A DNA stretch of 64,000 nt from Pedobacter sp. AJM (lineage in GTDB: Bacteria; Bacteroidota; Bacteroidia; Sphingobacteriales; Sphingobacteriaceae): assembly GCF_002197755.1 (NCBI RefSeq), contig NZ_NHOT01000002.1, positions 310,001 to 374,000 of the forward strand, written 5' to 3'. The translations under genes and the position numbers were made by a program. Positions 2,208 to 62,303 of this stretch are shown piece by piece. Position 1 is the first letter of the stretch. Every line of letters starts with the position of its first letter. The notes below the pieces were generated by a model. That model was not told where the DNA came from. It saw only the letters and a program-made list of their open reading frames with translations, and searched no databases.

Positions 2208-3578
2208 TTACTTCTTAAACACCAAATCCAATGCTTCAAAAATAGCACGTTTTGCTTTCTCCAATTCTATTTTGGTATGGGCCGCAGATACGAAACCAAC
2301 TTCATAACCCGATGGGCCTAAATAAATTCCTCTATTGAGCAATTCACGGTGCATGATCTTAAATTTATCCATGCTTCCGGCATCAATATCATCAGCAGAT
2401 TGAATTTTATCTTTCTCTGTAAAGGCAAACCAAAAAATAGAACCTATCGTAAAAACTTTAAATTTATAATTTCTGGCTGTAGCAAATCGTTGAATGCTGG
2501 CTACGAAATCTTGTGTTTTAGCATTTAGATCTTTATAAAAACCAGATCTGCTGAGTTCTGTTAATGTCGCAATTCCTGCAGCCATCGCAACCGGATTGCC
2601 CGATAAAGTACCTGCCTGATAAACACCTCCATCAGGAGAAATATGCCCCATAATTTCAGCAGAGGCACCATACATCCCCACAGGTAAGCCTCCACCGATG
2701 ATTTTTCCATAAGTTACAATATCTGGTGTGATACCATAATGCGCAGCTGCACCTTCAAAGCCAACCCTGAAACCAGTGATGACTTCATCAAAAATGAGCA
2801 GAGACTTGTTATCTGTACAGATTTTACGTAAGAATTTGATATATTCTTCATCCTGCATGATCAAGCCATTATTTGCCGGAATACCTTCGATAATTACAGC
2901 CGCTACCTGATCTTTAAACTGATTGAAAGCTTGTTCAATGGCATTTGTATCATTTAAAGGTATTACGATGGTTTCTTCAGCGAAAGATTTTGGAACCCCT
3001 GCTGATGACGTTTCACCAAAAGTAACTAAACCGGAACCTGCCTTTACTAATAATGAATCGCTATGACCGTGGTAACAGCCTTCAAATTTGATGATTTTAT
3101 CTCTGCCGGTAAATCCCCTGGCCAAACGAATCGCCGACATCACAGCCTCAGTACCAGAACTCGTGAAACGAATTTTTTCTACAAACCGGTTATTTTTAAT
3201 AATCAGTTCTGCCAATTCATTTTCTAAAGCAGTTGGTGCACCAAAACTCATTCCGTTCTGCATCACTTCGGTAACCTTCTCACGGATTTTTGGATGGTTA
3301 TGGCCTAAAATCAGTGGCCCCCAGCTTCCACAAAAATCAATAAATTGATTACCGTCTGCATCCCAGATATAACAGCCATCACCTTTTTCAATAAAAAGTG
3401 GTGTACCATACACCGATTTAAAAGCCCTTACAGGCGAATTTACACCGCCCGGGAAATACGTTTTAGACTTCTCATATAACTCCGCTGATTTTACCCTTGA
3501 AATATCAGGTTTACTTCCTGTGTTAACCGGAATATCGGCCTCATTGCCTGAAAATATTTTCTTTAATGAATCTAACAT
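2208..3578 (-). CDS. hemL: Glutamate-1-semialdehyde 2,1-aminomutase
   Basis: HemL converts glutamate-1-semialdehyde to 5-aminolevulinate, the second step of the C5 route to heme, using pyridoxal phosphate. The 456-aa product shows the class-III aminotransferase fold: the phosphate-binding SSGTEA at 140-145, LIFDEVITGFR with the cofactor Asp at 264, and the Schiff-base lysine Lys292 in YGKIIGGGLPVG. About 25 N-terminal residues precede the usual family start, so a slightly later start is possible. It is the last gene of the hemA-hemCD-hemB-hemL cluster, which supplies precursors from glutamyl-tRNA; hemE and later genes are not in the window. Confidence 0.95.
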   Translation of the reverse strand: MLDSLKKIFSGNEADIPVNTGSKPDISRVKSAELYEKSKTYFPGGVNSPVRAFKSVYGTPLFIEKGDGCYIWDADGNQFIDFCGSWGPLILGHNHPKIREKVTEVMQNGMSFGAPTALENELAELIIKNNRFVEKIRFTSSGTEAVMSAIRLARGFTGRDKIIKFEGCYHGHSDSLLVKAGSGLVTFGETSSAGVPKSFAEETIVIPLNDTNAIEQAFNQFKDQVAAVIIEGIPANNGLIMQDEEYIKFLRKICTDNKSLLIFDEVITGFRVGFEGAAAHYGITPDIVTYGKIIGGGLPVGMYGASAEIMGHISPDGGVYQAGTLSGNPVAMAAGIATLTELSRSGFYKDLNAKTQDFVASIQRFATARNYKFKVFTIGSIFWFAFTEKDKIQSADDIDAGSMDKFKIMHRELLNRGIYLGPSGYEVGFVSAAHTKIELEKAKRAIFEALDLVFKK

Positions 3579-3591
3579 TTTTTTAGTTTTT

Positions 3592-3722
3592 AAGTTGTAC
3601 GTATTAAGTTTTAAGTATTCGCCAAAACGCAGAACCTAAAACCTAAACTTACAATCTTCCTTTTCTCAAACCTATATATTAAGTTTTAAGTCTCTACCTA
3701 AACGTAGAACTTACAACTTTAA
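3592..3722. repeat. Two heptad-repeat hairpin elements between hemB and hemL
   Basis: This spacer is made of units exactly 7 nt long. The first element has AAGT units at 3592, 3606 and 3613 and inverted ACCT/ACTT units at 3633, 3640 and 3647. The second has AAGT units at 3681 and 3688 and ACTT-type units at 3702, 3709 and 3716. In gene direction the second element starts at the hemB stop codon. The arms are complementary enough to form hairpins in the transcript. See the findings for the whole family. Confidence 0.65.
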
Positions 3723-4687
3723 ATCCAATCGTTATTTAAAATATCTTTAATATGATAAGTAGTAATGATACTTGCACCGGCTCTTGCAAAGGCATGCATC
3801 GTTTCCATTACCACCTTTTGTTCGTCAATCCAGCCACGTTCTGCAGCAGCCTTAACCATGGAGTATTCACCTGATACATTGTAAACCGCTATAGGTAGAT
3901 TGGTATCTTGTTTTAACCGTTGGATAATATCCAGGTAAGCTAATCCGGGTTTCACCATCAGTACATCTGCACCTTCCTGTTCATCCAGCTGCGCTTCACG
4001 TAAAGCTTCTAAAGGATTTCTAAAATCCATCTGATAAGCTTTCCGGTCACCTTTGCCCGGGGCACAGTCTGCAGCCTCTCTAAACGGGCCATAATAAGCC
4101 GAGGCAAATTTCGTCGCATGACTCATAATAGCTGCATTTACAAAACCATTATCATCCAACAGATTTCGCATCGCTTCAATTCTGCCATCCATCATATCTG
4201 ATGGCGCAAACATATCAGCTCCGGCTTGCGCATGTGTTAAAGCCATTTTGGCAATTACATCAACCGTTTTATCGTTTTGAACATAATCATTTTCCAAAAT
4301 ACCGCAGTGCCCATGAGTGGTATAAGAACAAACGCATACATCGGTCACCACATATAAATCATCGCCAAATTGTTTCTTTAATTCACGAACGGCTGTTGGC
4401 ACCAGGGAATGATCATGATAGGCAGACTTTGCATCAGCTGACTTTTCATCTCCGACACCAAAAAGCATGATTTTATTCAAGCCCTTTTTCATTCCGGCTT
4501 CCACATCCTTAACCAAAGCATTAACCGAATAATGGTTTACACCAGGCATGGCATCAATCGCATGTGTAACATTTGTTCCAGGCACTACAAAATACGGGTA
4601 CACAAACATATCTTTCGATAGTCGGGTTTCGGCTACCATCTCTCTCACTAACGGATTTTTCCGTAATCTTCGCGGACGATTTAACAT
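3719..4687 (-). CDS. hemB: Porphobilinogen synthase (5-aminolevulinate dehydratase)
   Basis: HemB condenses two 5-aminolevulinate molecules into porphobilinogen. From the ATG at 4687 the protein is 322 aa, the normal length. Both catalytic lysines are present: Lys193 in SHATKFASAYYGPFR and Lys246 (Schiff base) in LMVKPGLAYLD. The zinc-binding cysteines are Cys118, Cys120 and Cys128 (DVCVCSYTTHGHCG), so it is the zinc-dependent type. An in-frame TTG seven codons upstream lies inside a heptad repeat and is unlikely to be the start. It lies between hemCD and hemL in the heme cluster. Confidence 0.95.
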   Translation of the reverse strand: MLNRPRRLRKNPLVREMVAETRLSKDMFVYPYFVVPGTNVTHAIDAMPGVNHYSVNALVKDVEAGMKKGLNKIMLFGVGDEKSADAKSAYHDHSLVPTAVRELKKQFGDDLYVVTDVCVCSYTTHGHCGILENDYVQNDKTVDVIAKMALTHAQAGADMFAPSDMMDGRIEAMRNLLDDNGFVNAAIMSHATKFASAYYGPFREAADCAPGKGDRKAYQMDFRNPLEALREAQLDEQEGADVLMVKPGLAYLDIIQRLKQDTNLPIAVYNVSGEYSMVKAAAERGWIDEQKVVMETMHAFARAGASIITTYHIKDILNNDWI

Positions 4688-4693
4688 ATAATT

Positions 4694-4728
4694 AGTATTT
4701 AGTATCAAGTATCGAGACTTGAGTATTC
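4694..4728. repeat. Heptad repeat upstream of hemB
   Basis: Five consecutive 7-nt units start at 4694, 4701, 4708, 4715 and 4722 (AGTATTT, AGTATCA, AGTATCG, AGACTTG, AGTATTC). The AG-T core is held and the rest varies. The element sits 7 nt before the hemB start codon, inside the untranslated leader if hemB is read from upstream. Confidence 0.6.
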
Positions 4729-4815
4729 ATTTTTCCTTGGAAGTGATTTCACCGATTCCTTATTTAATAGCACTGTTATGAGTAAGTCGTTTTGCTTTCA
4801 GCACTAATCTTTTAG

Positions 4816-4836
4816 CTTCCAAACCCTCAACCTCTA
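4816..4836. repeat. Short heptad element overlapping the hemCD stop codon
   Basis: Three 7-nt units (CTTCCAA, ACCCTCA, ACCTCTA) run up to and over the TAG stop of hemCD. In gene direction they read as a stop followed by AGGTTGAGGGTTTGGAAG. The same kind of sequence directly follows the stops of the LiaF-like gene (15872) and leuS (50610). Confidence 0.5.
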
Positions 4837-6423
4837 TTTAATTTCTATTCCAAAAACGGCCTCTGCTAATCCGATTTCATCAGGAGAATATGGCAAGGCA
4901 TATTTTACGCCCATCTCATCAAACTTTTTCCCTGTTGAATTACCGATGGCAATTACTTGTTGCCCAGGTTCTAGCAAATTATCAGCAAAATAGGCATCTA
5001 CATTGGATGGACTGGTAAAAATTAACACATCAGCATAACTCTGGTCGATGTTTTCTTCAATTACCGTTTCGTAAATGGGTAAATCAATAATTTTAGCATC
5101 AGCTGGCAAAGATTTTTGGATAGACTGCAATGAATCCTGTGCCCTTGGAAACAGGATATTTTTTCCTGAAACCAGCTTTGCAAAATCTTCAGCAACTTCT
5201 GTAATATCACCACTTTCACCTACAAAATTGGCAACATGACCAAACTTACGCAAGGCATCCTCCGACCCCCTACCTACTACGCCAAATTGTGTTTTCTTAG
5301 GTAAATGCGGTTTAAGATTGAAAAAATACTCCACACTATTTCGGCTGCTAAAGAAAATCCAATCAATATTTTTTAAAATAAACTGATCTAAAACCGTTAC
5401 GATAGGAAAAGTACGAATTAAAGAACGGCCTTCAATTTCAATTCCTTTGCTTTCCAGTGCTTTACGAAAATAGCTATGTTCTCCAATTTCGCGTGAGATA
5501 AAAACTTTAGCCGGCTTCTTTCTTTCCTGACTAAACTTGGCAACGATTTTTTCGGCCAAACCTTCCGTCGTTTCTGAGCGCAAAAACAAGCGTTCAGGAA
5601 AATCATCTGCGGTTTCAGCTTTTGATGTCCATACTTCAAAGACACCATCTTCTTCTTTGCAGTAACAGCCTAACGGCATATGGCACCCTCCCTCAAACAA
5701 GTTCAAAACTTTACGTTCCACACCCACTTCTTTAGCAGTTAAGGGATCGTGTAGTGTTTGAAGTGCTTCAAATAGTTCATGATCATTTTCTCTGATTTGT
5801 ATGGCTAAAGCACCCTGAGCCGGAGCCGGAACAAATGTAGTAGGTGCTAATTCCTCTACATGAAACTCACTAACATCTAAACCCAACCGTTTAATACCAG
5901 CTTTGGCGAGCATAATGGCATCATAGCTTTCATCCCTCAATTTCTGGATACGTGTAGGTACATTTCCCCGTAAATCTTCAATTTCCAAATCAGACCGTAA
6001 GCCCAATAATTGCGCTTTTCTCCTGTTTGAAGAAGTACCCACCATGGCACCCTTTTTCAATGAAAGTTTCTGGGATACATCTACGCAATCTTTTAAAATC
6101 AATAGATATTCAGTGGCTTCCTCACGTGGAGGAATAGCGGCAATAGTTAAGCCTACAGGATGATTGGTTGGCAAATCTTTCAGGCAGTGAACGGCCAGGT
6201 CAATTGTACCAGCCAGGAGCTCTTCTTCCAGTTCTTTGGTAAAAAAACCTTTTCCTTCTAATTTATCCAATCTCAAATTCAGGATTTTATCGCCCTGTGT
6301 TTTGATGATTTTAATATCAGCTTCTATTCCAATTGCAGCTAACTCACTTTGAATATGATTAGCCTGCCATAAAGCGAGGTCGCTACCGCGTGTTCCGATG
6401 GTTAATTTCTTCACTATAAACAT
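4834..6423 (-). CDS. hemCD: Fused hydroxymethylbilane synthase / uroporphyrinogen-III synthase
   Basis: One 529-aa reading frame carries two consecutive heme enzymes. Residues 5 to about 300 are porphobilinogen deaminase (HemC): TRGSDLALWQ at the start, catalytic Asp83 in HCLKDLPT, the Arg-rich SSNRRKAQLL, and Cys247 in EGGCHMPLGC for the dipyrromethane cofactor. Residues about 304-529 match uroporphyrinogen-III synthase (HemD): KPAKVFISREIGE, IDWIFFSSRNSVEYF, and VLIFTSPSNVDAYF near the end. HemC makes the unstable linear hydroxymethylbilane and HemD closes the ring, so fusion could pass the intermediate on directly. There is no frameshift at the joint. A HemC/HemD fusion is also known in Leptospira. 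Confidence 0.92.
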   Translation of the reverse strand: MFIVKKLTIGTRGSDLALWQANHIQSELAAIGIEADIKIIKTQGDKILNLRLDKLEGKGFFTKELEEELLAGTIDLAVHCLKDLPTNHPVGLTIAAIPPREEATEYLLILKDCVDVSQKLSLKKGAMVGTSSNRRKAQLLGLRSDLEIEDLRGNVPTRIQKLRDESYDAIMLAKAGIKRLGLDVSEFHVEELAPTTFVPAPAQGALAIQIRENDHELFEALQTLHDPLTAKEVGVERKVLNLFEGGCHMPLGCYCKEEDGVFEVWTSKAETADDFPERLFLRSETTEGLAEKIVAKFSQERKKPAKVFISREIGEHSYFRKALESKGIEIEGRSLIRTFPIVTVLDQFILKNIDWIFFSSRNSVEYFFNLKPHLPKKTQFGVVGRGSEDALRKFGHVANFVGESGDITEVAEDFAKLVSGKNILFPRAQDSLQSIQKSLPADAKIIDLPIYETVIEENIDQSYADVLIFTSPSNVDAYFADNLLEPGQQVIAIGNSTGKKFDEMGVKYALPYSPDEIGLAEAVFGIEIK

Positions 6424-10805: not shown

Positions 10806-12782
10806 TTAAATCTTCTCTATCCAATTGCCGTCATTCTTAATGATTTCAATCAGTTCATCTAAAGCAAAAGCCGTATTAACATTCTTCTTCACCACTTCCT
10901 GACCGCGATATAGCGTAATTTTGTCTGGACCTGTACCTACATATCCATAATCAGCATCGGCCATTTCACCCGGACCGTTTACAATACAGCCCATGATTCC
11001 GATCTTAAGCCCTTTCAAATGATCGGTCCTTGAGCGGATAAGTTGTGTGGTTTCCTGCAGATCAAAAAGTGTTCTGCCGCAACTTGGGCAAGAAATGTAT
11101 TCAGTTTTACTGATACGTGTACGTGTGGCCTGCAAAATACCAAAGCTGGTGGAGTTAATTAATGCAAGATCCAGGCCTGGTGCATCTATCCAGATTCCGT
11201 CACCAAAACCATCCGTAAATAGTGCACCAAAATCTGTTGCAGCATAAAGCATTAAGGTATCTGCATCCAGATTTTCATAACTTCTTCTGATGATCACCGG
11301 AATTTGCATGTTCAGGCTTTGCAAAGCAATAAAAAATGCTCTTTGTTCTGCCATTCCGTGTTTAGCGGATGTTTCGAGAACGAGCACAACATTATCTAGT
11401 GATACAGTTGTTAAAGTGGTTAGTTGGCTCGCATCAATTCTGACGAAATTCAAAAACTCATCCTTCACTTCAGTCCTGCTAAATTCTTCTAGGGAAAATA
11501 GAGGATGACAGTTGTTTTTATCACGAAGATTTAGCCATGTATGATAGTTATAAACCTGCTTTAAATTTCCAGGAAAAGAAAAGGAAGGCAGGTTATCACC
11601 AAGAAAAGCCAGGTCACATGCCTGATCGGCCAGGTTATATTTATCTAATCCCGCACTGTAATTATAGCCAACCGAACTCAAAAAGTAAGGATCTTTCAGG
11701 TTTTCTTTTGAAACATCAATCATGACCAAAGGGTGGTGATGATCACCAATGTGCTGAACAGACTGGGTAATTCTTCTTGAATAGGCGTATGGAGAGTAAG
11801 TTGGAAGTTGATTATTAGGAGTTGGGAGTATAATCGGCGACTCCGCACTCCGAACTTCAAACTCCAAACTCCTTTTCACATACCGATCAGCCAAAGCTTT
11901 TGCTACCGGTGCTTCAAATTCGGGATCTTCGGTTAAGGAAACACGAATGGTATCACCTAAACCATCTTCCAGCAGAGTACCAATGCCTACAGCAGATTTA
12001 ATTCGTCCATCTTCGCCATCTCCTGCTTCTGTTACGCCCAGGTGTAAAGGATAATTCATGCCTTCTTTCACCATGGTTTCAACCAATAAACGATAAGCCT
12101 GAACCATTACCTGTGTATTGCTAGCCTTCATAGAGATCACCAGGTTATAATAATTTTCGGCCTCACACATGCGGATAAATTCCATAGCAGATTCCACCAT
12201 TCCTCTTGGTGTATCGCCATAATGACTCATGATCCGGTCTGAAAGTGAACCATGATTGGTTCCAATACGCATGGCAGTACCATATTCCTTACAGATTTTT
12301 ATCAGTGGAATAAATTTTTTATTAATTCTTTCCAGTTCAGCAGTATAGGCATCATGCGTGTATTCCAGATTTTCAAACTTCTTTTTATCAGCATAATTCC
12401 CCGGATTTACTCTTACCTTCTCAACAATTCTTGCAGCCATTTCAGCTGCATTTGGTGTGAAGTGAATATCAGCAATCAGTGGGACATCATAGCCTCGGAA
12501 ACGTAATTCCTTTTTAATATTAGCTAAATTTTCAGCTTCTCTTATGCTGGGTGCGGTGATACGAACATATTCACAGCCAGATTCTACCATGCGAATGGTT
12601 TGCTCTACTGTTCCAATGGTATCCATGGTATCGGTTGTTGTCATCGATTGGATACGAATGGGGTTATGACCACCTAAAGCGATGTCTCCAATCTTAACTT
12701 CGCGGGTTAAAAACCTGGAATACTGCGTTAAACTGTTGCAATACCCTCCACCTAACTCATGCTTTACCGATAAATTTTCCAT
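10806..12782 (-). CDS. ispG: 4-hydroxy-3-methylbut-2-enyl diphosphate synthase, long form
   Basis: IspG (GcpE) makes HMBPP from MEcPP in the MEP isoprenoid pathway using a [4Fe-4S] cluster. At 658 aa this is the long, insert-containing form found in Bacteroidota and plants rather than the 370-aa E. coli type. The TIM-barrel half starts with the GGHNPIRIQSMTTTDT motif. The cluster cysteines are Cys565 and Cys568 (ISCPSCGR) and Cys599, followed by Glu606 in CIVNGPGEM. Residues about 303-329 are encoded by a heptad repeat (see 11798-11874). They lie in the linker before the middle domain, where extra length is tolerable. Confidence 0.95.
   Translation of the reverse strand: MENLSVKHELGGGYCNSLTQYSRFLTREVKIGDIALGGHNPIRIQSMTTTDTMDTIGTVEQTIRMVESGCEYVRITAPSIREAENLANIKKELRFRGYDVPLIADIHFTPNAAEMAARIVEKVRVNPGNYADKKKFENLEYTHDAYTAELERINKKFIPLIKICKEYGTAMRIGTNHGSLSDRIMSHYGDTPRGMVESAMEFIRMCEAENYYNLVISMKASNTQVMVQAYRLLVETMVKEGMNYPLHLGVTEAGDGEDGRIKSAVGIGTLLEDGLGDTIRVSLTEDPEFEAPVAKALADRYVKRSLEFEVRSAESPIILPTPNNQLPTYSPYAYSRRITQSVQHIGDHHHPLVMIDVSKENLKDPYFLSSVGYNYSAGLDKYNLADQACDLAFLGDNLPSFSFPGNLKQVYNYHTWLNLRDKNNCHPLFSLEEFSRTEVKDEFLNFVRIDASQLTTLTTVSLDNVVLVLETSAKHGMAEQRAFFIALQSLNMQIPVIIRRSYENLDADTLMLYAATDFGALFTDGFGDGIWIDAPGLDLALINSTSFGILQATRTRISKTEYISCPSCGRTLFDLQETTQLIRSRTDHLKGLKIGIMGCIVNGPGEMADADYGYVGTGPDKITLYRGQEVVKKNVNTAFALDELIEIIKNDGNWIEKI
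11798..11874. repeat. In-frame heptad-repeat insertion within ispG
   Basis: Inside the ispG frame the plus strand has AAGTTGG and AAGTTGA at 11798 and 11805 and GAGTTGG at 11819. Then come five perfect 7-nt units of the inverted type at 11840, 11847, 11854, 11861 and 11868 (ACTCCGC, ACTCCGA, ACTTCAA, ACTCCAA, ACTCCTT). The two halves are roughly complementary. It adds a peptide reading SLEFEVRSAES in the ispG direction, without a frameshift. Confidence 0.7.
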
Positions 12783-12843: not shown

Positions 12844-12926
12844 ATAGTAAAAATTTATTTTGCTAATAATTAAAAGCAATATTTCCTTATTTTGCTATTA
12901 TTTTATAGCAATTTTTACTATTTTTG
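12844..12926 (+). promoter_or_regulatory. Promoter/operator-like region of the DUF4143 ATPase gene
   Basis: A perfect 12-bp inverted repeat (ATAGTAAAAATT at 12844-12855, AATTTTTACTAT at 12910-12921) encloses a smaller one (TTGCTAT at 12892-12898, ATAGCAA at 12905-12911) and another TTGCT/AGCAA pair around 12859-12880. TATTTTTG at 12919-12926 fits TAnnTTTG, 19 nt before the ATG at 12945. Dyads overlapping a promoter suggest repressor binding, possibly autoregulation. The spacer also serves the divergent ispG gene. Confidence 0.45.
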
Positions 12927-12944
12927 CTTCTAAATACTATCAAA

Positions 12945-14238
12945 ATGGAAAAGTTACGGCTTAAATCAAATTTAATTGTACAGCAACAAACAATGAATAT
13001 TGTGAGGCCATTATCAAAAAAGATAGACTGGAGCGATAGACTTATTAGCATTTTGGGCGCCAGAGGGACTGGCAAGACTACCTTGATTTTACAGCACATT
13101 AAAGCTAATTATGGTTTAAGTGATGAAGCGTTATATGTTTCTATGGATGATATTTATTTCTCCAATAACAAATTATCAGACTTTGCAGAAGAATTTAGAC
13201 AAAATGGAGGAAAAATATTATTTATTGATGAAGTACACAAATACCCGGATTGGGCAAAAGAAATAAAAAATATATACGATTTTTACAAAGACTTAAAAAT
13301 CGTATTTACAGGTTCATCTATTATTGATATCTCCAGACAAAAAATAGATTTGAGCCGTAGGGCAGTACAATACGAATTAACAGGATTATCTTACAGAGAA
13401 TTTTTAAGTTTTAGTAATATTATAAATCTTGATGCTATTTCATTAGAGGATTTGCTTCAAAATCATATTCAAATTGCACATGATTTAATTTCAAAATTTA
13501 AGCCATTACAGTACTTTAATGAATACTTAAAACATGGTTACTATCCTTTTTTTGTAGAAAATATCAATACCTATCACCTACGACTGGAAAAGGTTGTTAG
13601 ATTAATTATAGAAGAAGATTTACAGTTTATAGCAGGTTTTAACCCACATCATTCCAGAAAAATCTATCAATTACTTTATATTTTATCAACTAATGTCCCT
13701 TTTAAACCTAACATTAGCAATTTAAGCGAAAAAACAGGAATTAGTAGAAATGCAATTGTAGAGTATTTGTATTACTTATACAATGCAAAATTAATAAACA
13801 CGCTTTCGGCGGCTGGTAAAAGCATTAGTACCTTACAAAAACCTGATAAAATTTTTTTAGAAAATACATATCTATCATTTGCATTAAGTCCAAATAACAC
13901 AGAGAAAGGTTCTTTACGTGAAGCCTTTTTTATGAATCAGCTTACAAATGCCGGGCATGCTATTAAAAAAATCATTTGCATTAAGTCCAAATAACACAGA
14001 GAAAGGTTCTTTACGTGAAGCCTTTTTTATGAATCAGCTTACAAATGCCGGGCATGCTATTAATTTACCTCTTAAAGGCGATTTTTATGTTAATGATCAA
14101 TTCACTTTTGAAATCGGAGGTAAGGGAAAATCAACTAAACAATTAACCGGGATTGACAATTCTTTCTTTGCCGTTGATGACATGGAAGCGGGTATAGGCA
14201 ATAAAATTCCTTTATGGATGTTTGGTCTACTTTATTAA
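12945..14238 (+). pseudogene. AAA+ ATPase with DUF4143 domain, frameshifted by a 97-bp tandem duplication
   Basis: The gene starts at the ATG at 12945 and encodes the widespread AAA_14/DUF4143 ATPase: Walker A GARGTGKTTL (about residues 37-46), Walker B ILFIDEVHKY (about 90-99), a sensor region VFTGSSI and a winged-helix segment (ISNLSEKTGISRNAIVEYLY). The frame ends at 13994 because 97 bp are duplicated in tandem (13874-13970 and 13971-14067). The rest of the protein continues in another frame to the stop at 14238 and contains FEIGGKGKS and IPLWMFGLLY of the DUF4143 nuclease-like core. Removing one 97-bp copy gives a 398-aa protein of normal length. Cellular roles of this family are poorly known. 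Res. 309 region: Tyr in NTYLSF is Asn in the downstream copies. Confidence 0.85.
13874..14067. repeat. 97-bp tandem duplication inside the ATPase gene
   Basis: 13874-13970 is repeated at 13971-14067 with an offset of exactly 97 bp, starting at ATCATTTGC. The first unit ends in GCATGCTATTAA plus four extra A residues (13967-13970) where the second continues with TTTACC. 97 is not a multiple of three, so the frame shifts. Confidence 0.85.
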
Positions 14239-14453: not shown

Positions 14454-15065
14454 GTAGAAATGCAATTGTAGAGTATTTGTATTACTTATACAATGCAAAA
14501 TTAATAAACACGCTTTCGGCGGCTGGTAAAAGCATTAGTACCTTACAAAAACCTGATAAAATTTTTTTAGAAAATACAAATCTATCATTTGCATTAAGTC
14601 CAAATAACACAGAGAAAGGTTCTTTACGTGAAGCCTTTTTTATGAATCAGCTTACAAATGCCGGGCATGCTATAAAAAATTGTAGAGTATTTGTATTACT
14701 TATACAATGCAAAATTAATAAACACGCTTTCGGCGGCTGGTAAAAGCATTAGTACCTTACAAAAACCTGATAAAATTTTTTTAGAAAATACAAATCTATC
14801 ATTTGCATTAAGTCCAAATAACACAGAGAAAGGTTCTTTACGTGAAGCCTTTTTTATGAATCAGCTTACAAATGCCGGGCATGCTATTAATTTACCTCTT
14901 AAAGGCGATTTTTATGTTAATGATCAATTCACTTTTGAAATCGGAGGTAAGGGAAAATCAACTAAACAATTAACCGGGATTGACAATTCTTTCTTTGCCG
15001 TTGATGACATGGAAGCGGGTATAGGCAATAAAATTCCTTTATGGATGTTTGGTCTACTTTATTAA
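14445..15065 (+). pseudogene. Second, 5'-truncated copy of the DUF4143 ATPase C-terminal half
   Basis: This is the copy-2 version of the ATPase 3' half. It starts inside the winged-helix region (after GISRNA) and is itself broken by a 214-bp tandem duplication. The first frame runs NAGHAIKNC and stops at 14743; a second frame from about 14691 repeats YYLYNAKL and reads intact to IPLWMFGLLY and the stop at 15065. There is no Walker A or promoter of its own, so I regard it as a non-functional remnant, although a 124-aa DUF4143-only peptide could be made from the ATG at 14691. Confidence 0.8.
14465..14892. repeat. 214-bp tandem duplication inside the second ATPase copy
   Basis: 14465-14678 is repeated at 14679-14892 (offset 214), starting at ATTGTAGAG. 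The first unit stops at GCATGCTAT followed by A residues, within two bases of where the 97-bp duplication stops in copy 1. 214 also leaves a remainder of one when divided by three, giving the same direction of frameshift. Confidence 0.85.
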
Positions 15066-15836: not shown

Positions 15837-15875
15837 GCCTTCAACTTTCCACCCTCAAACCTTCAACCTTTTTAG
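15837..15875. repeat. Heptad element directly after the LiaF-like gene
   Basis: 7-nt units TCAACTT, TCCACCC, TCAAACC and TTCAACC run from 15841 to the stop codon of the LiaF-like gene at 15872-15874. In gene direction the stop is followed by AAAGGTTGAAGGTTTGAGGG. It matches the sequences after leuS and hemCD. Confidence 0.55.
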
Positions 15876-23820: not shown

Positions 23821-23891
23821 TTACAATAATTTTGCCTCACGGCAGATAAAAATAATTGAAACTGCTTTCAGGGCGAAACAGTATGTTGAAT

Positions 23892-24071
23892 TAACCTCTT
23901 CCCTACGCCGGCATTATCCGGATCAGGTGCATTTAAGTTCAAAGTTTTGGGTTCAAAGTTAAAAGCTTAAACTTTCGACTTTGGACTTTTAACTTTCCAA
24001 TTAAAACGGGTGTAATCTCAGCCTCCGATTGCAACAGCTGTTGCACAATTCAAAAGCACCCCTTTGAGTAA
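23892..24071 (-). promoter_or_regulatory. TPP riboswitch (THI element) upstream of pnuT
   Basis: On the reverse strand the conserved blocks appear in order: GGGGTGC, a P3 stem-loop (GCAACAGCTGTTGC), GCTGAGATTACACCC, then CACCTGATCCGGATAATGCC and GGCGTAGGGAA. These are the P2, P3 and P4/P5 signatures of TPP riboswitches. Between ACACCC and CACCTGATCC, where only a few bases are usual, about 75 nt are inserted; most of it is a heptad-repeat hairpin (23935-23997). The leader to the pnuT start is about 70 nt. TPP binding should turn off pnuT. Confidence 0.92.
23935..23997. repeat. Nine-unit palindromic heptad repeat within the TPP riboswitch
   Basis: Nine consecutive 7-nt units in perfect register: AAGTTCA, AAGTTTT, GGGTTCA, AAGTTAA, AAGCTTA (centre), AACTTTC, GACTTTG, GACTTTT, AACTTTC. 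The left four carry AGT/GGT, the right four ACT, so the block folds on itself around AAGCTT. It is the clearest member of the heptad family in the window. Confidence 0.75.
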
Positions 24072-50614: not shown

Positions 50615-53435
50615 CAACTACATTAATAATCTTTCCCTTAACAAAAATGATTTTTTTCGGTGTTTTGCCATCCAAAAATTTCTGGAATTGTTCATTCGCA
50701 AATAGAATGGCTTCTACTTCTGGTTGTGCCAGGGTTAAACTCAAATTCAGGTTCATTTTCATTTTACCGTTCACTGAAACGGGATAAGCAAACTCATCCT
50801 CCACTAGGTGATCCGGATTAAAGGTTGGGAAAGCTGTATAAGATAAACTTCCTGCTTCATTCCCCAACTGTACCCAAAGTTCTTCACAAATGTGCGGTGC
50901 ATATGGCGATAAGATCACCACCAGATCCTGCAAAACAGCACGTTTGTTACATTTTAAATCGGTCAGCTCATTTACCGCAATCATAAAACTGGATACAGAA
51001 GTATTGAAAGAGAAACGCTCAATGTCGTCCTGCACTTTTTTAATGATTTTGTGTAAAGCTTTCAGTTCTGCCTTGGTTGGCTCCGCATCAGAAACCGTAA
51101 ATTCCCAGGCTTCATTGTGGAATAATCTCCAGAATTTCCGCAGGAACTTAAATACGCCTTCAATCCCATTGGTATTCCAGGGTTTACTTTGCTCCAACGG
51201 ACCTAAGAACATTTCATACATCCGCAAGGTATCAGCGCCATAACGTTCAATCAAATCATCCGGATTCACCACATTGAATTTTGATTTCGACATTTTTTCG
51301 ACTTCAACACCGCAAATGTATTTGCCGTTTTCCAGAATGAATTCGGCATTGGCATATTCTTCTCTCCACGACTTAAATTTATTCAAATCTAAGGTATCGT
51401 TCTCCACAATGTTAACATCAACATGCAATGCTGAAGTTTTGTATTCCCTCCTTAATCCTGCGGAAACAAAAGTACTAGTTGGCTTTCCATTCTCGTCATT
51501 GATGCGGTAAACAAAATTACTCCTACCCTGAATCATCCCCTGGTTAATCAGTTTTTTGAAAGGCTCTTCTTCCTTGGTATAACCTAAATCTTTCAAAAAT
51601 TTATTCCAGAAACGACTGTATAGTAAGTGGCCCGTTGCATGTTCAGAACCGCCGATGTATAAATCAACAGCCTGCCAGTAGTCAATCGCTTCTTTAGCTG
51701 CAAAATCAGTATCATTATTGGCATCCATATAGCGGTACCAGTACCAGCTGCTTCCAGCCCAGCCTGGCATGGTGCTTAGCTCGTAATGATCACCGGCAGA
51801 AGGCGTCCAGTTGCTTGCCCTCGCCAAAGGTGGCTCACCCGTTTCAGTAGGCAAATATTTATTAATTTCTGGTAATATGAGGGGTAATTCCTCTTCTTTT
51901 ATTAAATATGGTAATCCATCCTTAAAATAAACCGGAATCGGCTCACCCCAATAACGCTGACGGCCAAAAATAGCATCACGTTGACGGAAATTTACTTTTG
52001 CTTTTCCAACATTTTCTTCTTCTAACCAGTTATTTAAAAGTGGAACCGCTTCTCTATAGGTTAATCCATTGATGAAAGCTGAATTAATATATTTCCCCTC
52101 TTTGGTTGGGTCGGCCTGCACATCAATGTCTTTCTGTGCGTCTAAAATTTGAATAACCGGCAGATTAAAATGCGTCGCAAATAACCAGTCACGCTGATCG
52201 CCGCTCGGCACACCCATCACCGCGCCTGTTCCATAACCTGCAAGTACATAATCTGCAATGTATAATGGAACACGTTCACCACTCACCGGATTAATGACAT
52301 AGGTACCGGTAAAAGCACCTGAAACTGTTTTAGTGTCCGCCATGCGGTCTAATTCAGATTTCTTTTTGGTTTGGGCTATATAATTTTCTACTTCAGCTTT
52401 TTGCTCAGGTCTAGTTAATTCAGCAACCCATTCGTGTTCAGGCGCTAAAACCAGGTAAGAAACCCCGAAAATGGTATCTACGCGGGTGGTGAAAACCTCA
52501 ATGTAGTCTGAAGTACGGAGTACAGCATCAGAAGTCTGATTTGTAGATCGTAAATCTTCAATCTTAAATTTAACTGATGCGCCTACACTCTTTCCAATCC
52601 AGTTGCGTTGCATTTCCTTCACGGGTTCCGGCCAGTCGATGGTATCTAAACCTTGTAAAAGTCTGTCAGCATAAGCAGTGATTCTCATGCTCCATTGCAT
52701 CATTTTTTTCTGTTCCACCGGAAAACCGCCACGTTCAGAGAAACCATCTTTAACTTCATCATTGGCCAGAACTGTTCCTAAAGCCGGGCACCAGTTCACT
52801 GTACTTTCCCGTAAATAGGTTAAGCGGTATTTCAACAATTCAGTTTGCTTTTCTTCTTCCGTAAAGGTTGCCCAATCACTTGGCAGGAATATTTTTACGT
52901 CTTCGTCGCAAGCGGCTTTTACATCAGCCGACCCTGAAGCATTAAATTTCTCAATTAAAGTGGTGATGTCTTCTGCACGATCATTTTCAAGGTTGTACCA
53001 GGAATTGAACAATTGCATAAAAATCCACTGTGTCCATTTATAGTATGATGGCTCGCTGGTACGCACTTCTCTGCTCCAGTCAAAAGAAAAACCAATCTGA
53101 TCTAACTGGCGACGGTAAGTGGCAATGTTTGCCTCAGTGGTAATGGCCGGATGCTGACCAGTTTGTATGGCATACTGTTCTGCAGGCAAACCGAAAGAAT
53201 CATAGCCCATTGGATGCAAAACATTAAACCCTTTAAGGCGTTTGTATCTTGAAAAAATATCAGATGCAATGTAACCCAGTGGGTGACCAACGTGTAAACC
53301 TGCTCCTGATGGATAAGGAAACATATCTAGCACATAATATTTTGGTTTTTCAGAATTGCTTTCGGCTTTAAAGGTTTCATGATCTGCCCAAAATTTCTGC
53401 CACTTTTGTTCTATTTCTTTGAATTGGTAATCCAT
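50610..53435 (-). CDS. leuS: Leucyl-tRNA synthetase
   Basis: A 941-aa class Ia synthetase that charges tRNA-Leu. The HIGH-type motif is in FPYPSGAGLHVGHPLGYIA (about 38-56) and the KMSKS loop is in VEKMSKSKFNVVNPDDL. The CP1 editing domain is present (TTRVDTIFGVSYLVLAPEH, GTGAVMGVPSGDQRDW). Residues about 290-311, at the entry to the editing domain just before the YIEVFTTR strand, are encoded by an in-frame heptad repeat (52505-52567) that I would not expect in other LeuS proteins. It is a single gene, with a heptad element at its stop. Confidence 0.95.
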   Translation of the reverse strand: MDYQFKEIEQKWQKFWADHETFKAESNSEKPKYYVLDMFPYPSGAGLHVGHPLGYIASDIFSRYKRLKGFNVLHPMGYDSFGLPAEQYAIQTGQHPAITTEANIATYRRQLDQIGFSFDWSREVRTSEPSYYKWTQWIFMQLFNSWYNLENDRAEDITTLIEKFNASGSADVKAACDEDVKIFLPSDWATFTEEEKQTELLKYRLTYLRESTVNWCPALGTVLANDEVKDGFSERGGFPVEQKKMMQWSMRITAYADRLLQGLDTIDWPEPVKEMQRNWIGKSVGASVKFKIEDLRSTNQTSDAVLRTSDYIEVFTTRVDTIFGVSYLVLAPEHEWVAELTRPEQKAEVENYIAQTKKKSELDRMADTKTVSGAFTGTYVINPVSGERVPLYIADYVLAGYGTGAVMGVPSGDQRDWLFATHFNLPVIQILDAQKDIDVQADPTKEGKYINSAFINGLTYREAVPLLNNWLEEENVGKAKVNFRQRDAIFGRQRYWGEPIPVYFKDGLPYLIKEEELPLILPEINKYLPTETGEPPLARASNWTPSAGDHYELSTMPGWAGSSWYWYRYMDANNDTDFAAKEAIDYWQAVDLYIGGSEHATGHLLYSRFWNKFLKDLGYTKEEEPFKKLINQGMIQGRSNFVYRINDENGKPTSTFVSAGLRREYKTSALHVDVNIVENDTLDLNKFKSWREEYANAEFILENGKYICGVEVEKMSKSKFNVVNPDDLIERYGADTLRMYEMFLGPLEQSKPWNTNGIEGVFKFLRKFWRLFHNEAWEFTVSDAEPTKAELKALHKIIKKVQDDIERFSFNTSVSSFMIAVNELTDLKCNKRAVLQDLVVILSPYAPHICEELWVQLGNEAGSLSYTAFPTFNPDHLVEDEFAYPVSVNGKMKMNLNLSLTLAQPEVEAILFANEQFQKFLDGKTPKKIIFVKGKIINVVV
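52505..52567. repeat. In-frame heptad-repeat insertion within leuS
   Basis: Nine consecutive 7-nt windows in register: AGTCTGA (52505), AGTACGG, AGTACAG, CATCAGA, AGTCTGA (52533), TTTGTAG, ATCGTAA, ATCTTCA, ATCTTAA. The AGT core holds in four units and an ATC core in three. In the leuS frame it encodes a Ser/Thr-rich stretch (RSTNQTSDAVLRTSDY). Confidence 0.55.
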
Positions 53436-58400: not shown

Positions 58401-58513
58401 GGGCGTGCCCCCAAGCTATGCAAGGGGTCGGGCTGTACGCAATATACTTTTCGTTTTTATGTACTGATATTATCCGTTAGAACGAAAAGGTATACCGCTT
58501 CCATCCCTCACGC
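58401..58513. repeat. Structured Bacteroidota intergenic repeat upstream of ribF
   Basis: A compact element with nested complementarity: GGGCGTG (58401) against CACGC (58509-58513), CCCC/GGGG near 58408-58427, GGGGTCGGGCTGTACGC on the left against ACCGCTTCCATCCCT on the right, and a central hairpin TATAC-TTTTCGTT / AACGAAAAGG-TATA (58443-58455, 58481-58494). Elements with GGGTCGGGCT...CGC, a variable hairpin and ATCCCT.ACGC are, from memory, scattered in many Bacteroidota genomes. It contains no reading frame. Confidence 0.6.
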
Positions 58514-58542
58514 AAACCCCATAGTTTAAAAAGATTATCCCA

Positions 58543-59541
58543 TTGAAAATATACCATAACCTATCCGAATTTACCAGGCTTAGCAACGCAATCGTAACCA
58601 TAGGTACTTTTGATGGTGTTCATTACGGACACCAGAAAATCATCAAACAGTTAGTTGCAAAAGCAAAAGCAGATCATGGTGAAAGTGTTATTTTAACTTT
58701 CTTCCCTCATCCACGGCTGATCATTGATCCTGAAAATCAGGACCTTAAAATGATCAATACCATCAACGAAAAAGCTGAAATCTTAAAAAGCCTTGGTGTT
58801 GATCATTTAATCATCACCCCCTTTACCCGCGATTTTTCAAACCAGCTTCCGGATGATTATATCAAGAATACATTGGTTAATAACATCGGGACCAAACATA
58901 TCATTATTGGATACGACCATCGTTTTGGAAAAGACCGTACCGGAAACCTTGCTGATTTAAAGGCAGCAGGTATTCATTTTGGTTTTACCGTTGAAGAAAT
59001 TATGGAGCAGGATATCCACGATGTTGCGGTGAGTTCAACTAAAATCCGGCAGGCACTTCTAGCTGGTGATGTCGGCCTTGCATCAGATTATTTAGGCTAT
59101 GCCTTTTCTATTTTCGGGCGCGTAATTAAGGGTGATAAAATCGGCAGAACCATTGGTTTCCCAACGGCCAACATTTTTGTAGAAGAAACCTATAAACTGA
59201 TTCCAGGCGATGGCATTTATGCGGTAACGGTTGAAATGAATGTCAGGAGTCAGAAGTCAGAAGTCGAGAGTCAGAAGTCGGGAGTTAATGCCTCAGCTCC
59301 TCAACCCTCAACCTTTAAAGGTATGGCTTATATCGGTCAAAGGCCAACCATCAATGGCATGACGAGAAACATTGAAGTAAATATCTTCGATTTTAATCAG
59401 GAAATTTATGGGCAAGATATCAAAATGAATTTCTTAAAATTTCTACGCCATGATGTAAAATTCACTGGTTTAGAAGCTTTAAAAGTTCAACTTCAAAAAG
59501 ATAAAGAAGATACACTGGCTTTCTTTTCATCTCTTAAATAG
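58543..59541 (+). CDS. ribF: Bifunctional riboflavin kinase / FAD synthetase
   Basis: A 332-aa enzyme that makes FMN and then FAD from riboflavin. The N-terminal FAD synthetase (nucleotidyltransferase) half has TFDGVHYGHQKII and ISSTKIR-like VSSTKIRQAL; the C-terminal riboflavin kinase half has IGRTIGFPTANI and AYIGQRPTING. Residues about 233-259, between two kinase strands (GIYAVTVEMN and KGMAYIGQRP), are encoded by a heptad repeat and read as Ser/Gln/Lys/Glu-rich filler. The start is a TTG; no ATG is available before the HxGH-type motif. Confidence 0.93.
   Translation: MKIYHNLSEFTRLSNAIVTIGTFDGVHYGHQKIIKQLVAKAKADHGESVILTFFPHPRLIIDPENQDLKMINTINEKAEILKSLGVDHLIITPFTRDFSNQLPDDYIKNTLVNNIGTKHIIIGYDHRFGKDRTGNLADLKAAGIHFGFTVEEIMEQDIHDVAVSSTKIRQALLAGDVGLASDYLGYAFSIFGRVIKGDKIGRTIGFPTANIFVEETYKLIPGDGIYAVTVEMNVRSQKSEVESQKSGVNASAPQPSTFKGMAYIGQRPTINGMTRNIEVNIFDFNQEIYGQDIKMNFLKFLRHDVKFTGLEALKVQLQKDKEDTLAFFSSLK
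59241..59319. repeat. In-frame heptad-repeat insertion within ribF
   Basis: Seven exact 7-nt units from 59241 (TGTCAGG, then AGTCAGA, AGTCAGA, AGTCGAG, AGTCAGA, AGTCGGG, AGTTAAT) with AGT at 59248, 59255, 59262, 59269, 59276 and 59283. A right arm has CTCAGCT, CCTCAAC, CCTCAAC. Because 7 and 3 have no common factor, three units give a 7-residue peptide period (SQKSEVE then SQKSGVN). Confidence 0.75.
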
Positions 59542-60023: not shown

Positions 60024-62237
60024 ATGCACTTACCAGATTTAATTGCCGATTTAGGATTAATCCTCGCCGCAGCGGGAATTACCACACTCATATTTAAAAA
60101 AATTAAACAGCCACTTGTTTTAGGTTATATTTTAGCAGGCTTATTGGTTGGCCCGCATTTAGATTTTTTTCCCTCCGTTACCGACACCAAAAATATTAAT
60201 ATCTGGGGCGAAATTGGTGTGATCTTCCTCCTATTCAGTTTAGGATTGGAATTTAGTTTTAAAAAACTGGTTAAGGTTGGCGGTTCCGCTTCGGTGACGG
60301 CCATTGTCGAAGTTGTTTTTATGCTTTTAATCGGTTTCTCAGCAGGTAAACTAATGGGCTGGAAAACCATGGACAGTATTTTTCTTGGTGGAATTTTATC
60401 TGTTTCTTCTACCACTATTATTATCAGGGCTTTTGAAGAACTTGGCGTAAAACATAAAAAATTCGCAGGTCTGGTTTTTGGTGTGCTCATTGTAGAAGAT
60501 TTAGTGGCCATCTTGCTACTCGTTCTCCTCTCTACCCTTGCGGTGAGTCAGCAGTTTGCCGGTAGCGAAATGCTGATATCAATCTTAAAACTGGCATTTT
60601 TTTTAGTACTCTGGTTTTTAGGTGGAATATTTCTGATTCCGTCTTTCCTGAAAGCTACCAGAAAGCTGATGAATGACGAAACCATGCTCGTGGTTTCTCT
60701 GGCCTTATGCCTGTTAATGGTGCTCCTGGCTGTAAAGGTTGGATTTTCTCCTGCATTAGGTGCCTTTATTATGGGCTCCATCCTTGCCGAAACTACACAG
60801 GCCGAAAAAATAGAACATTTAACCAAATCTGTAAAAGATTTATTTGCAGCAGTATTTTTTGTTTCAGTAGGCATGCTCATTGATCCAAAAATACTGATAG
60901 ATTACAGCATCCCGATTGTAATTGTAACACTAGCCACTATTTTTGGAAAGTTTTTGAGTTCAAGTCTAGGCGCACTCCTTTCCGGCCAGCCGCTCAAAAC
61001 TTCTGTTCAATCTGGAATGAGCCTGGCACAAATTGGTGAATTTTCGTTCATTATTGCCACATTAGGATTAACCTTAAAGGTAACCAGTGATTTTCTCTAC
61101 CCGATTGCCGTGGCGGCATCAGCCATCACTACTTTCACTACTCCCTACCTCATAAAACATTCTGAGGCATTTTATAATTTCCTTAACCGGATTCTGCCTA
61201 AAAAATGGCTGGATGGGATTTCAAGATACAGTTCCAGTACGGCAGGAATGACCACCTTGAGCGACTGGAAAATTCTTTTGCGGAGTTATGCCTTTAATAC
61301 AGTTATCCATTCCGTTATTATTGTGGCAGTTATTTTTCTGGCATCGCGCTATATTCAGCCTTTCATTGCCAAAAATTTTGTAAATGGAATTAAATCGACC
61401 ATAATCAGCCTGGTGGTTTCATTTATTATCATGGCGCCTTTTTTATGGGCATTATCCATCAGAAGGATTCAAAAAACGGCTTATTCACACTTGTGGCTGA
61501 ATAAAAAATATACCCGAGGACCATTAATCGCGATAGAAGTATTCAGAATCGCACTAGGCATCTTTTTCGTTGGATTTTTAATGTACGAATTTTTTGATAC
61601 CTGGATTGCCGCCGGAATTGCTTTAGCTTTGATTGTGCTGATGATGTTTATTTTCTCCAGGAAACTCCAGGCTTTTTACAACCAGCTGGAAAAACGTTTC
61701 ATTTTAAACCTGAACGCACGAGAAAATCAGAAACCAGATATTTTACCCTGGGATACCCACCTGACAGAATTAACGGTTTCGCCAGAATCTGAGGTGGTAG
61801 GACAAACACTCGCAAGCCTGATGATCCGTGAAAAATTTGGTGTAAACATTGCCATGATTGAACGTGGCAGAAACAGCATCCCCACACCTGGAAGAGATGA
61901 AAGACTTTACCCCAATGACAAATTGCTGCTCATCGGTGCAGACGATCAATTGGCAGCAGTAAAGGCGATTTTAGAGGTGGATATACCGGAAACAGAAAGT
62001 GAGAAAAACTTCCCTGATAAGGAAATGACCTTACAGAAAGTGGTGGTAAATATGGAATCTCCGGTTTATGGACTGAGCATCCGGAATGCAGGAATAAGAG
62101 AAAAAGCACAGGCATTAATTGTTGGCATTGAACGCGGATCAGAACGCATTTTAAACCCCTCATCAGACTTCACATTTGATAATGGGGATATCATCTGGAT
62201 TGTAGGGAATAATAAGAAAATTAAAGAGGTGATATAG
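60024..62237 (+). CDS. CPA2-family monovalent cation:proton antiporter (KefB-like)
   Basis: A 737-aa antiporter. Residues about 5-385 form the Na+/H+ exchanger fold (12 spans; PLVLGYILAGLLVGPHLDFF, LLFSLGLEFSFKKL, FILSVSSTTIIIRAFEELG-type text). About four further spans at 420-545 follow, then two TrkA-C (RCK_C) domains, at about 572-650 (LTELTVSPESEVVGQTLASL) and 668-737 (QKVVVNMESPVYGLSIRN). The NAD-binding RCK_N domain of KefB/KefC is missing. It probably exchanges K+ or Na+ for protons. A heptad element follows its stop. Confidence 0.9.
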   Translation: MHLPDLIADLGLILAAAGITTLIFKKIKQPLVLGYILAGLLVGPHLDFFPSVTDTKNINIWGEIGVIFLLFSLGLEFSFKKLVKVGGSASVTAIVEVVFMLLIGFSAGKLMGWKTMDSIFLGGILSVSSTTIIIRAFEELGVKHKKFAGLVFGVLIVEDLVAILLLVLLSTLAVSQQFAGSEMLISILKLAFFLVLWFLGGIFLIPSFLKATRKLMNDETMLVVSLALCLLMVLLAVKVGFSPALGAFIMGSILAETTQAEKIEHLTKSVKDLFAAVFFVSVGMLIDPKILIDYSIPIVIVTLATIFGKFLSSSLGALLSGQPLKTSVQSGMSLAQIGEFSFIIATLGLTLKVTSDFLYPIAVAASAITTFTTPYLIKHSEAFYNFLNRILPKKWLDGISRYSSSTAGMTTLSDWKILLRSYAFNTVIHSVIIVAVIFLASRYIQPFIAKNFVNGIKSTIISLVVSFIIMAPFLWALSIRRIQKTAYSHLWLNKKYTRGPLIAIEVFRIALGIFFVGFLMYEFFDTWIAAGIALALIVLMMFIFSRKLQAFYNQLEKRFILNLNARENQKPDILPWDTHLTELTVSPESEVVGQTLASLMIREKFGVNIAMIERGRNSIPTPGRDERLYPNDKLLLIGADDQLAAVKAILEVDIPETESEKNFPDKEMTLQKVVVNMESPVYGLSIRNAGIREKAQALIVGIERGSERILNPSSDFTFDNGDIIWIVGNNKKIKEVI

Positions 62238-62239
62238 GT

Positions 62240-62296
62240 AGTCCAGAGTTTTTAGTCAGTAGTCTGAAGTCTATATAACCTCCTGACTTCAGACTT
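62240..62296. repeat. Heptad element with perfect hairpin after the antiporter gene
   Basis: Two nucleotides after the stop codon, five units AGTCCAG, AGTTTTT, AGTCAGT, AGTCTGA, AGTCTAT start at 62240, 62247, 62254, 62261 and 62268. AGTCTGAAGTC (62261-62271) pairs exactly with GACTTCAGACT (62285-62295), followed by a T-rich run, so it can also act as a terminator. Confidence 0.7.
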
Positions 62297-62303
62297 ATTT
62301 TTA

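Follow-up and report, generated by a model that had tools for sequence, protein, structure and literature searches.

Introduction

Cyanobacterial STRR are tandem repeats with a unit of 7 nt, and REP/REPIN elements are short palindromes that lie scattered in one genome and are associated with RAYT transposases. A GTAG or CGTC tag at the hairpin is given as a feature of REP/RAYT systems in the excerpt of PMC3733652 that we draw on. Heptameric SSR/LSSR, that is over-represented 7-nt tandem units for which polymerase slippage was proposed, go back to Mrazek 2007 (as cited in PMC4679880 and PMC4692102), and bacterial heptamer repeats have been noted since 2007 (as cited in PMC4692102), slippage being a proposal without a shown mechanism. 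As far as the excerpts of the respective papers go, direct repeats of TAACTGA occur in Beggiatoaceae, Cyanobacteria and five Bacteroidetes, mostly in intergenic positions and, in the Bacteroidetes, with other heptamer repeats beside them (MacGregor 2015, PMC4679880); S1, Csp and Csr are named there as candidate binders. Heptamers are likewise reported from Xanthomonas and Nostoc, those of Xanthomonas being G-rich, quadruplex-forming GGGAATC repeats (PMC4692102, in part). Within reading frames, RPE are palindromes inserted in frame in unrelated genes, forming families of about 150 bp that each have a conserved peptide (PMC10969869, in part), and coding palindromes are known from mitochondria of Nematomorpha (PMC6649704, in part).

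Here we analyse a 64,000-nt stretch of Pedobacter sp. AJM (contig NZ_NHOT01000002.1, positions 310,001 to 374,000; hereafter the window), in which an earlier note, made from the letters alone, had listed 11 loci built from 7-nt units with an AGT or ACT core. They belong to a set of degenerate 7-nt tandem arrays that is genus-wide. With heptameric SSR/LSSR these arrays share an excess over chance of tandem units that are exactly 7 nt long, and differences in unit number between relatives (42, 41, 21 and 7 nt); in contrast to them, as excerpted, the Pedobacter units are degenerate and fall into several motif families, many have an inverted partner arm, and some lie in reading frames. TAACTGA repeats resemble them in being heptamer arrays, mostly intergenic and present in Bacteroidota, but consist, in the excerpt, of one fixed unit where the Pedobacter arrays have several motifs; two consecutive TAACTGA units were found neither in the window nor in six 400-kb stretches of related genomes (2.4 Mb). 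The GGGAATC repeats are similar in that two related species have most of them between the same pairs of genes, with much variation in length and sequence and with an inverted pair among them, yet they differ by their G-rich, quadruplex-forming sequence (PMC4692102, in part). In-frame insertion in ORFs, here ribF, leuS and ispG, is shared with RPE as excerpted; unlike RPE, the arrays have no master sequence, and ribF loops of 36–186 nt, against 33 nt where there is no insert, differ in sequence. The resemblance to REP/REPIN-RAYT lies in the presence of Y1 genes and of short palindromes scattered in a genome, whereas around the Y1 genes examined (20 of 118, weaker class) heptads occur at background density only. 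STRR, by their general description, are similar as 7-nt tandem repeats.

The view of the earlier note that no such repeats had been described in Bacteroidota was too strong, given the TAACTGA heptamers of five Bacteroidetes in the excerpted PMC4679880. Heptamer repeats as such are known in this phylum. For the palindromic, coding, multi-motif form we found no description in the open-access literature, subscription journals being mostly outside the scope of the search. The in-frame arrays of ispG, leuS and ribF, the TPP riboswitch site, the fixed polarity and the other period-7 motif families had not been part of the earlier note.

Results

A 7-nt register in the window and in related genomes

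No strand-collapsed trinucleotide of the window stands out as strongly at any period from 4 to 30 as AGT/ACT does at period 7 (14 triples against 0.21 expected); GTC/GAC at the same period comes second. Chains of AGT/ACT units, with one skipped unit permitted, were compared with 300 dinucleotide shuffles of the window: 9 chains of at least 3 units were observed (shuffle mean 0.96, maximum 4) and 7 of at least 4 units (mean 0.03, maximum 1), and 100 local 1-kb shuffles gave a similar result. The shuffled control that the earlier note had proposed, run here on the window, thus bears out that the 7-nt register is real and that it stays fixed while the unit varies. All 11 loci print in 7-nt blocks, but the list stands only in part: the nine runs map to seven of its loci (3592, 4694, 11798, 23935, 52505, 59241 and 62240), whereas 3681, 4816, 15841 and 50587 are weak and fail the run test.

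In a core-agnostic test the window had five lag-7 segments, and no other period from 4 to 30 gave more than 1. Over 80 related loci (1.0 Mb) the test found 41 segments at lag 7 with harmonics at 14, 21 and 28, while none of the remaining periods exceeded 4. When the threshold was relaxed, five of the six 400-kb stretches had more segments at lag 7 than at any other period (10–18; Markov controls 0–2), the exception being genome G053, in which lag 9 exceeds lag 7 (13 against 6 segments). Loose chains of at least 3 units with skips were no better than the reversed control in G000 (21 against 26 per 400 kb), while the other five stretches had 21–29 against 12–17. When perfect arrays of period 5–12 with at least 3 copies were counted in the 2.4 Mb, leaving aside 66 tetramer arrays, 10 of 13 had period 7; they comprise six motifs, and some lie at one site in two species. 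Separately from the arrays, the window has exact tandem duplications of 97 and 214 bp (13874–14063 and 14464–14887), in and after an open frame at 12924–13994 whose translation contains, by eye, a GTGKT motif; the duplications may be recent or an assembly effect.

Hairpin arms have a near-fixed polarity

To describe the inverted partner arms we used 94 strong arms from about 3.3 Mb, namely the six stretches and 75 of the 80 loci, with perfect arrays and arms near ends dropped. ACTN4ACT occurs within 90 nt downstream of 44 of the 94 arms and upstream of none, so that in every recognised pair the AGT arm is 5' and the ACT arm 3'; the pairing of an AGT with an ACT arm that the earlier note saw at several loci is thus supported. 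For the remaining 50 arms no partner was recognised. The best complement was downstream of the arm in 66 cases and upstream in 16, with 12 ties. Since both strands were scanned, an element with two strong arms is counted twice, and because the species are related, p-values from this test are too small. The polarity extends to other cores, with AGTC at 15:0, AAGT at 10:0, AGTT at 10:1, AGAT at 6:0 and AAGG at 4:0 (lag 6 and 8 controls 0–0.5); it is weaker for AAAG (10:4, control 4.5) and was not seen for A/T-only cores in the same count of arm directions.

Folding energies were less informative. In fixed 120-nt windows, fold z-scores of 127 elements, a set that includes weak 3-unit runs, did not differ from those of 240 intergenic controls (p 0.18), and this measure was dropped as proof of hairpins in favour of the directional arm test. 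In the window itself, z is below -2 in 3 of 10 stretches; of the 10, the stretch 62238–62285 lacks the 3' arm, so that its fold is uninformative.

Arrays outside coding frames

The intergenic locus at 3580–3718, with one or more heptad palindromes, lies between an aminotransferase gene (2208–3578, minus strand) and hemB/ALAD (3719–4690, minus strand; Pfam names). It consists of an AGT run at 3593–3616 followed by ACC/ACT units, with a lag-7 segment at 3578–3621, and its fold z is -3.04 for 3580–3680 and -1.83 for 3660–3718. On the 5' side of hemB, facing a hemC/hemD-like gene (4834–6423, minus strand), a plus-strand run of 4 AGTATTT/AGTATCA-type heptads spans 4694–4724 (lag-7 segment 4682–4735); the fold of 4685–4834 is no better than that of shuffles (z 0.52). 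A weak minus-strand array of CCTTCAA type at 15838–15870, between two minus-strand genes, is found by TRF with period 7 but fails the AGT/ACT run test (fold z -0.22).

Directly 3' of the stop codon of a Na/H-exchanger-type antiporter gene (60024–62237, plus strand) a heptad hairpin occupies 62240–62300 on the plus strand, with a run of 5 units and then TATTTTTATA. The 100 nt after the stop fold with -21.3 kcal/mol (an energy without shuffles). The hairpin is terminator-like and may have a terminator role. We located the slot after this gene in 76 sources; judged by eye and energy, some species have heptad hairpins there, others have different palindromes or terminator-like hairpins, and in the remaining species no clear structure stands out. 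In three relatives' loci (L046, L061, L114; L labels denote relatives' loci and G labels genomes) the slot holds a palindrome with CATTGCGAG where other species have the heptad hairpin. Nearby, between an ORF ending at 58379 and ribF, a Flavo-1 RNA (RF01705, 48 bits) lies at 58422–58518 on the minus strand.

In-frame arrays in ispG, leuS and ribF

IspG, LeuS and RibF are essential proteins, and each of their genes has a heptad insert in the window. In ispG (minus strand; product matching GcpE in Pfam with E 8.6e-122) the insert at 11799–11870 is palindromic, with an AGT run at 11799–11829 and an ACT run at 11840–11870, both arms being translated; its fold z is -3.33. Among relatives its length and sequence differ while the frame is kept open, the stretch measuring 138–222 nt across 30 loci, with heptads visible in part of them. 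A different in-frame repeat, encoding CHPELVEG, occupies this stretch in L153, L154 and L171. In the one-contig genome G009 (C1:3800391-3802366) the ispG match is divided, at the insert position, into two pieces that overlap, the second of which contains stops; this is either a real break or a sequencing error.

The leuS insert (52505–52573, minus strand) lies at the start of the editing domain as placed by Pfam and comprises an AGT run at 52505–52535 and a TRF array at 52547–52573 (fold z -1.89). The corresponding stretch was readable in 42 of 81 sources, the window included, and measures 33 nt in 17 and 39–108 nt in 25, with pairs of 51 and 72 nt and of 33 and 75 nt (differences of 21 and 42 nt); the 33-nt form is found in array-rich genomes too, for example L073.

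In ribF (59242–59313, plus strand) an AGT arm is followed by CCTCAAC-type units within the flavokinase loop, with a run of 6 units that TRF also detects; the fold of the window copy is no better than that of shuffles (z 1.11). An alignment of 81 RibF sequences shows one loop of 33 nt in 23 and of 36–186 nt in 58, the rest of the protein being conserved. Many loops have AGT units in the first half and ACT/ACC in the second, L100, L104 and L108 being among the exceptions, and the loops of L044 and L054 (90 and 69 nt) differ by a 21-nt gap. In an AlphaFold run with 30 of the 81 sequences (mean pLDDT 74, pTM 0.54), residues 237–252, between predicted strands 224–232 and 256–269, have pLDDT below 50 and form the longest of four low segments.

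Across the six 400-kb stretches 28 of the 127 elements lie in called ORFs, some of them probably chance 3-unit runs. Since ORFs cover 82–85% of these stretches, coding copies are a minority.

A heptad hairpin inside a TPP riboswitch

Ahead of pnuC, on the minus strand, a TPP riboswitch at 23883–24062 is split by a heptad hairpin at 23936–23997, which separates ACCC, in the 5' half of the riboswitch, from ACCTGAT, in the 3' half (fold z -2.23 for 23930–24000). Both halves are visible: the 3' half matches RF00059 with E 4.6e-6 and 38 bits, below the gathering score of 54.3, and the 5' half, upstream on the minus strand, was recognised not by Rfam but from its letters GGGGTGC...CTGAGA...ACACCC. 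The RF00059 consensus has about 5 nt between ACCC and ACCTGAT. A loose TPP pattern matched 10 of 30 pnuC loci, the window's included, all with 70–96 nt from CTGAGA to ACCTGAT, while two stricter versions matched 1 of 30. By eye, the riboswitch insert of L121, L122, L125, L146 and L147 has AAGG/CCTT heptads, not AGT/ACT, both arms being changed.

Units are related within a locus and arrays differ between species

With perfect arrays set aside, 36 arms from four of the six stretches have a unit similarity within a locus of 0.450, against a mean of 0.337 and a maximum of 0.383 when units are shuffled among loci (2000 shuffles). Free positions within a locus are only 45% identical in these arms; the 10 perfect period-7 arrays of the 2.4 Mb stand apart from them. 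Adjacent units are no more alike than non-adjacent ones (0.425 against 0.467). Hence, of the earlier proposal that units are copied from their neighbour with errors, local relatedness without one master copy holds, whereas copying from the immediate neighbour is not supported, nor is the statement that units differ mostly by transitions, with 112 transitions against 203 transversions (36% transitions; 39% between loci). The similarity of an arm to its own partner (0.441 against 0.342) comes from 5 arm pairs only.

Forty strong elements were mapped in three species pairs with median flank identities of 94.8, 95.0 and 88.1%. Nine are conserved, 2 differ by a multiple of 7, 14 show another change in length, 2 match in length but have diverged, and for 13 no counterpart was recognised in the other species, some of these cases being mapping errors (the G065 element at 292728 sits in G070 at 102157). 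Only 2 of the 16 length changes are thus exact multiples of 7, one of them being a switch to another motif. Single sites illustrate the range. An ACTAAAG array of G053 has 7.6 copies, whereas the G000 site contains roughly two seed units by eye, a difference of 42 nt; G073 and G081 differ by about 9 against 3 copies at the same site (41 nt) and, at another, by an AGTTGAG array in G081 against GGTTGAA in G073, with lengths of 117 and 116 (median flank identity of this pair 94.8%). The ispG inserts of these two genomes are unlike, and elsewhere a GAGATTT palindrome and an AGTNNNN palindrome occupy one site in close species. Species with about 95% identical flanks therefore differ at arrays in length, motif or presence. 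The unit-number differences that the earlier note had proposed to look for among strains exist between species (7, 21 and 42 nt), together with many others that are not multiples of 7. Because related species differ in them so much, the arrays appear to grow and to be rewritten in place.

Arrays are largely a whole-genome property

Two sets were used, a genus set of 60 genomes and the 80 loci, 50 of whose genomes were counted; G005 of the first and G084 (P. changchengzhani) of the second have identical match coordinates. Most of the 80 loci are from Pedobacter, P. petrophilus having the RibF nearest to that of the window (89%). In the genome of the window itself AGTN4 repeated four times has 138 matches against 26 for the reversed pattern, matches overlapping within an array, and over the 50 genomes the counts are 5957 and 1080, with AGT above the control in 43. 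In the genus set, AAGTN3 repeated four times occurs in 35 of 60 genomes (473 against 62 control matches), AGAT arrays in 32 (410 against 18) and AAGG arrays in 35 (465 against 98). These genome sets nearly coincide: at least one family is found in 37 genomes and none in 23, and AAGT and AAGG arrays occur together in 34, singly in 2 and not at all in 24.

Among the 50 counted genomes, all 10 with a 33-nt RibF loop have 0–7 AGT matches, whereas of the 39 with a loop of at least 60 nt, 38 have 10–624 (624 in the array-rich P. rhizosphaerae) and one (L100) has 0. Ten of the 11 genomes with fewer than 10 AGT matches form one clade on the RibF tree, which midpoint rooting sets inside array-bearing ones, although the rooting of this single-gene tree is weak. 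Array presence is largely a property of the whole genome that spans several motif families, and is probably governed by an activity in replication, repair or clearing. Loss of SbcD was considered as a permissive factor and rejected: SbcD matches above the cut-off occur in 3 of the 35 genomes with arrays and in 7 of the 25 without (p 0.077), and since 50 of the 60 have no match above the cut-off, its absence is not sufficient.

Over the phylum the AAGT pattern occurs in 132 of 395 genomes. In several of them the reversed control is far commoner (225 against 9 in G259), so that other cores dominate there. G259, G401, G409, G411 and G497 have the reversed control TGAA every 7 nt, 158–349 times per genome, which is a different heptad core.

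Discussion

In quasipalindromes, intrastrand template switching copies one arm from the other. We propose, with about an even chance of being right, that Pedobacter arrays arise by 7-nt slippage and homogenisation in place together with copying between hairpin arms, and that most of them are tolerated passengers. DNA slippage in 7-nt steps would let heptanucleotide arrays grow, shrink and homogenise where they are, and intrastrand template switching between hairpin arms would make and refresh the inverted arm. Point mutations would supply new unit variants and turnover would spread a variant through an array, so that the sequence of the units changes over time on an unchanged 7-nt lattice. Arrays would persist where insertion is harmless, in intergenic spacers, loops of core proteins and the riboswitch junction; as loop length is held to multiples of 3, a whole-unit change there would come as 21 nt. 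Most copies would have no function, although a few, such as that at 62240, may act as terminators. Several results stand against this reading. Plain slippage and template switching do not predict the near-fixed polarity, in which the AG-containing arm is 5', and the 13 of 40 elements unrecognised in the partner fit insertion or deletion too; in addition, adjacent units are no more alike than others, fold z does not differ from controls, 50 of 94 arms are unpaired, and lag 9 leads in G053.

The main rival, possible but in our judgement rather unlikely, is that short non-autonomous hairpin elements of REP, MITE or RPE kind are moved in trans, perhaps by a Y1-type transposase, and that their arms then vary by mutation and slippage. 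Hairpin anatomy and near-fixed polarity would suit such elements, as would the in-frame positions in three enzymes, the one riboswitch and the 13 unrecognised elements, mapping errors among them aside; yet no master sequence is shared between loci, and no target duplication was noticed by eye at the compared sites. Y1_Tnp is present in 34 of the 35 genomes with AAGT arrays and in 4 of the 25 without (Fisher p 3e-11), a link that may reflect shared descent, since the array-poor genomes fall so largely in one RibF clade, and among array-bearing genomes the number of Y1 genes tends to fall with rising array count (rho -0.33, p 0.05). Around 20 of the 118 Y1 matches, all of the weaker class as opposed to the strong, IS200-like one, heptads occur at background density (4 of 20 loci; 5 lag-7 segments against 5.8 expected), none of them within 1.5 kb of the Y1 gene, and several Y1 flanks have, by eye, other, non-heptad palindromes. 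A Y1 transposase as mover was therefore set aside: the correlation is strong, but heptads are not enriched near the 20 weaker-class genes. As an observation of its own, the Y1/RAYT-like genes of L299–L318 have several different non-heptad palindromes in their flanks by eye, for example in L306, L313 and L315. Slippage alone accounts neither for the near-universal polarity nor for presence or absence by genome, and a trans-acting enzyme may be involved. A dedicated trans-acting activity that much of Pedobacter has and one clade lacks as a unit, and that writes or spreads hairpins of any motif on a 7-nt lattice with AG...CT polarity, and so remodels core-enzyme loops and a riboswitch junction, seems to us unlikely.

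Selection on the arrays, in which the AG core every 7 nt would offer a DNA- or RNA-binding protein a series of sites, an idea put forward for TAACTGA repeats, is improbable. The core is kept while the other four positions vary, but the arms were chosen by that core, so that its conservation is partly built in. Several arrays adjoin starts or stops by eye, and others lie in protein loops; moreover, a Pedobacter clade nearly without arrays has the same genes, and different cores occupy one site in close species. That the arrays are ordinary intrinsic terminators or mRNA hairpins with an incidental period is the most improbable of these readings. It has the 62240 stem with a T-rich tail 3' of a stop codon in its favour, and a hairpin of some kind occurs there in many relatives (by energies without shuffles), yet it accounts for neither the coding nor the riboswitch positions, period 7 is also found in single-arm and perfect arrays, and some array-free genomes have ordinary terminator-like hairpins in the antiporter slot.

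In summary, one genus holds many arrays, several motif families and a nearly array-free clade, which makes the cause of the 7-nt step open to genome comparison and culture tests. The pnuC case is a structured RNA that took up a hairpin. Judging from the in-frame cases, a mutational process may be remodelling loops of the core enzymes RibF, LeuS and IspG, which would be a natural experiment in loop tolerance.
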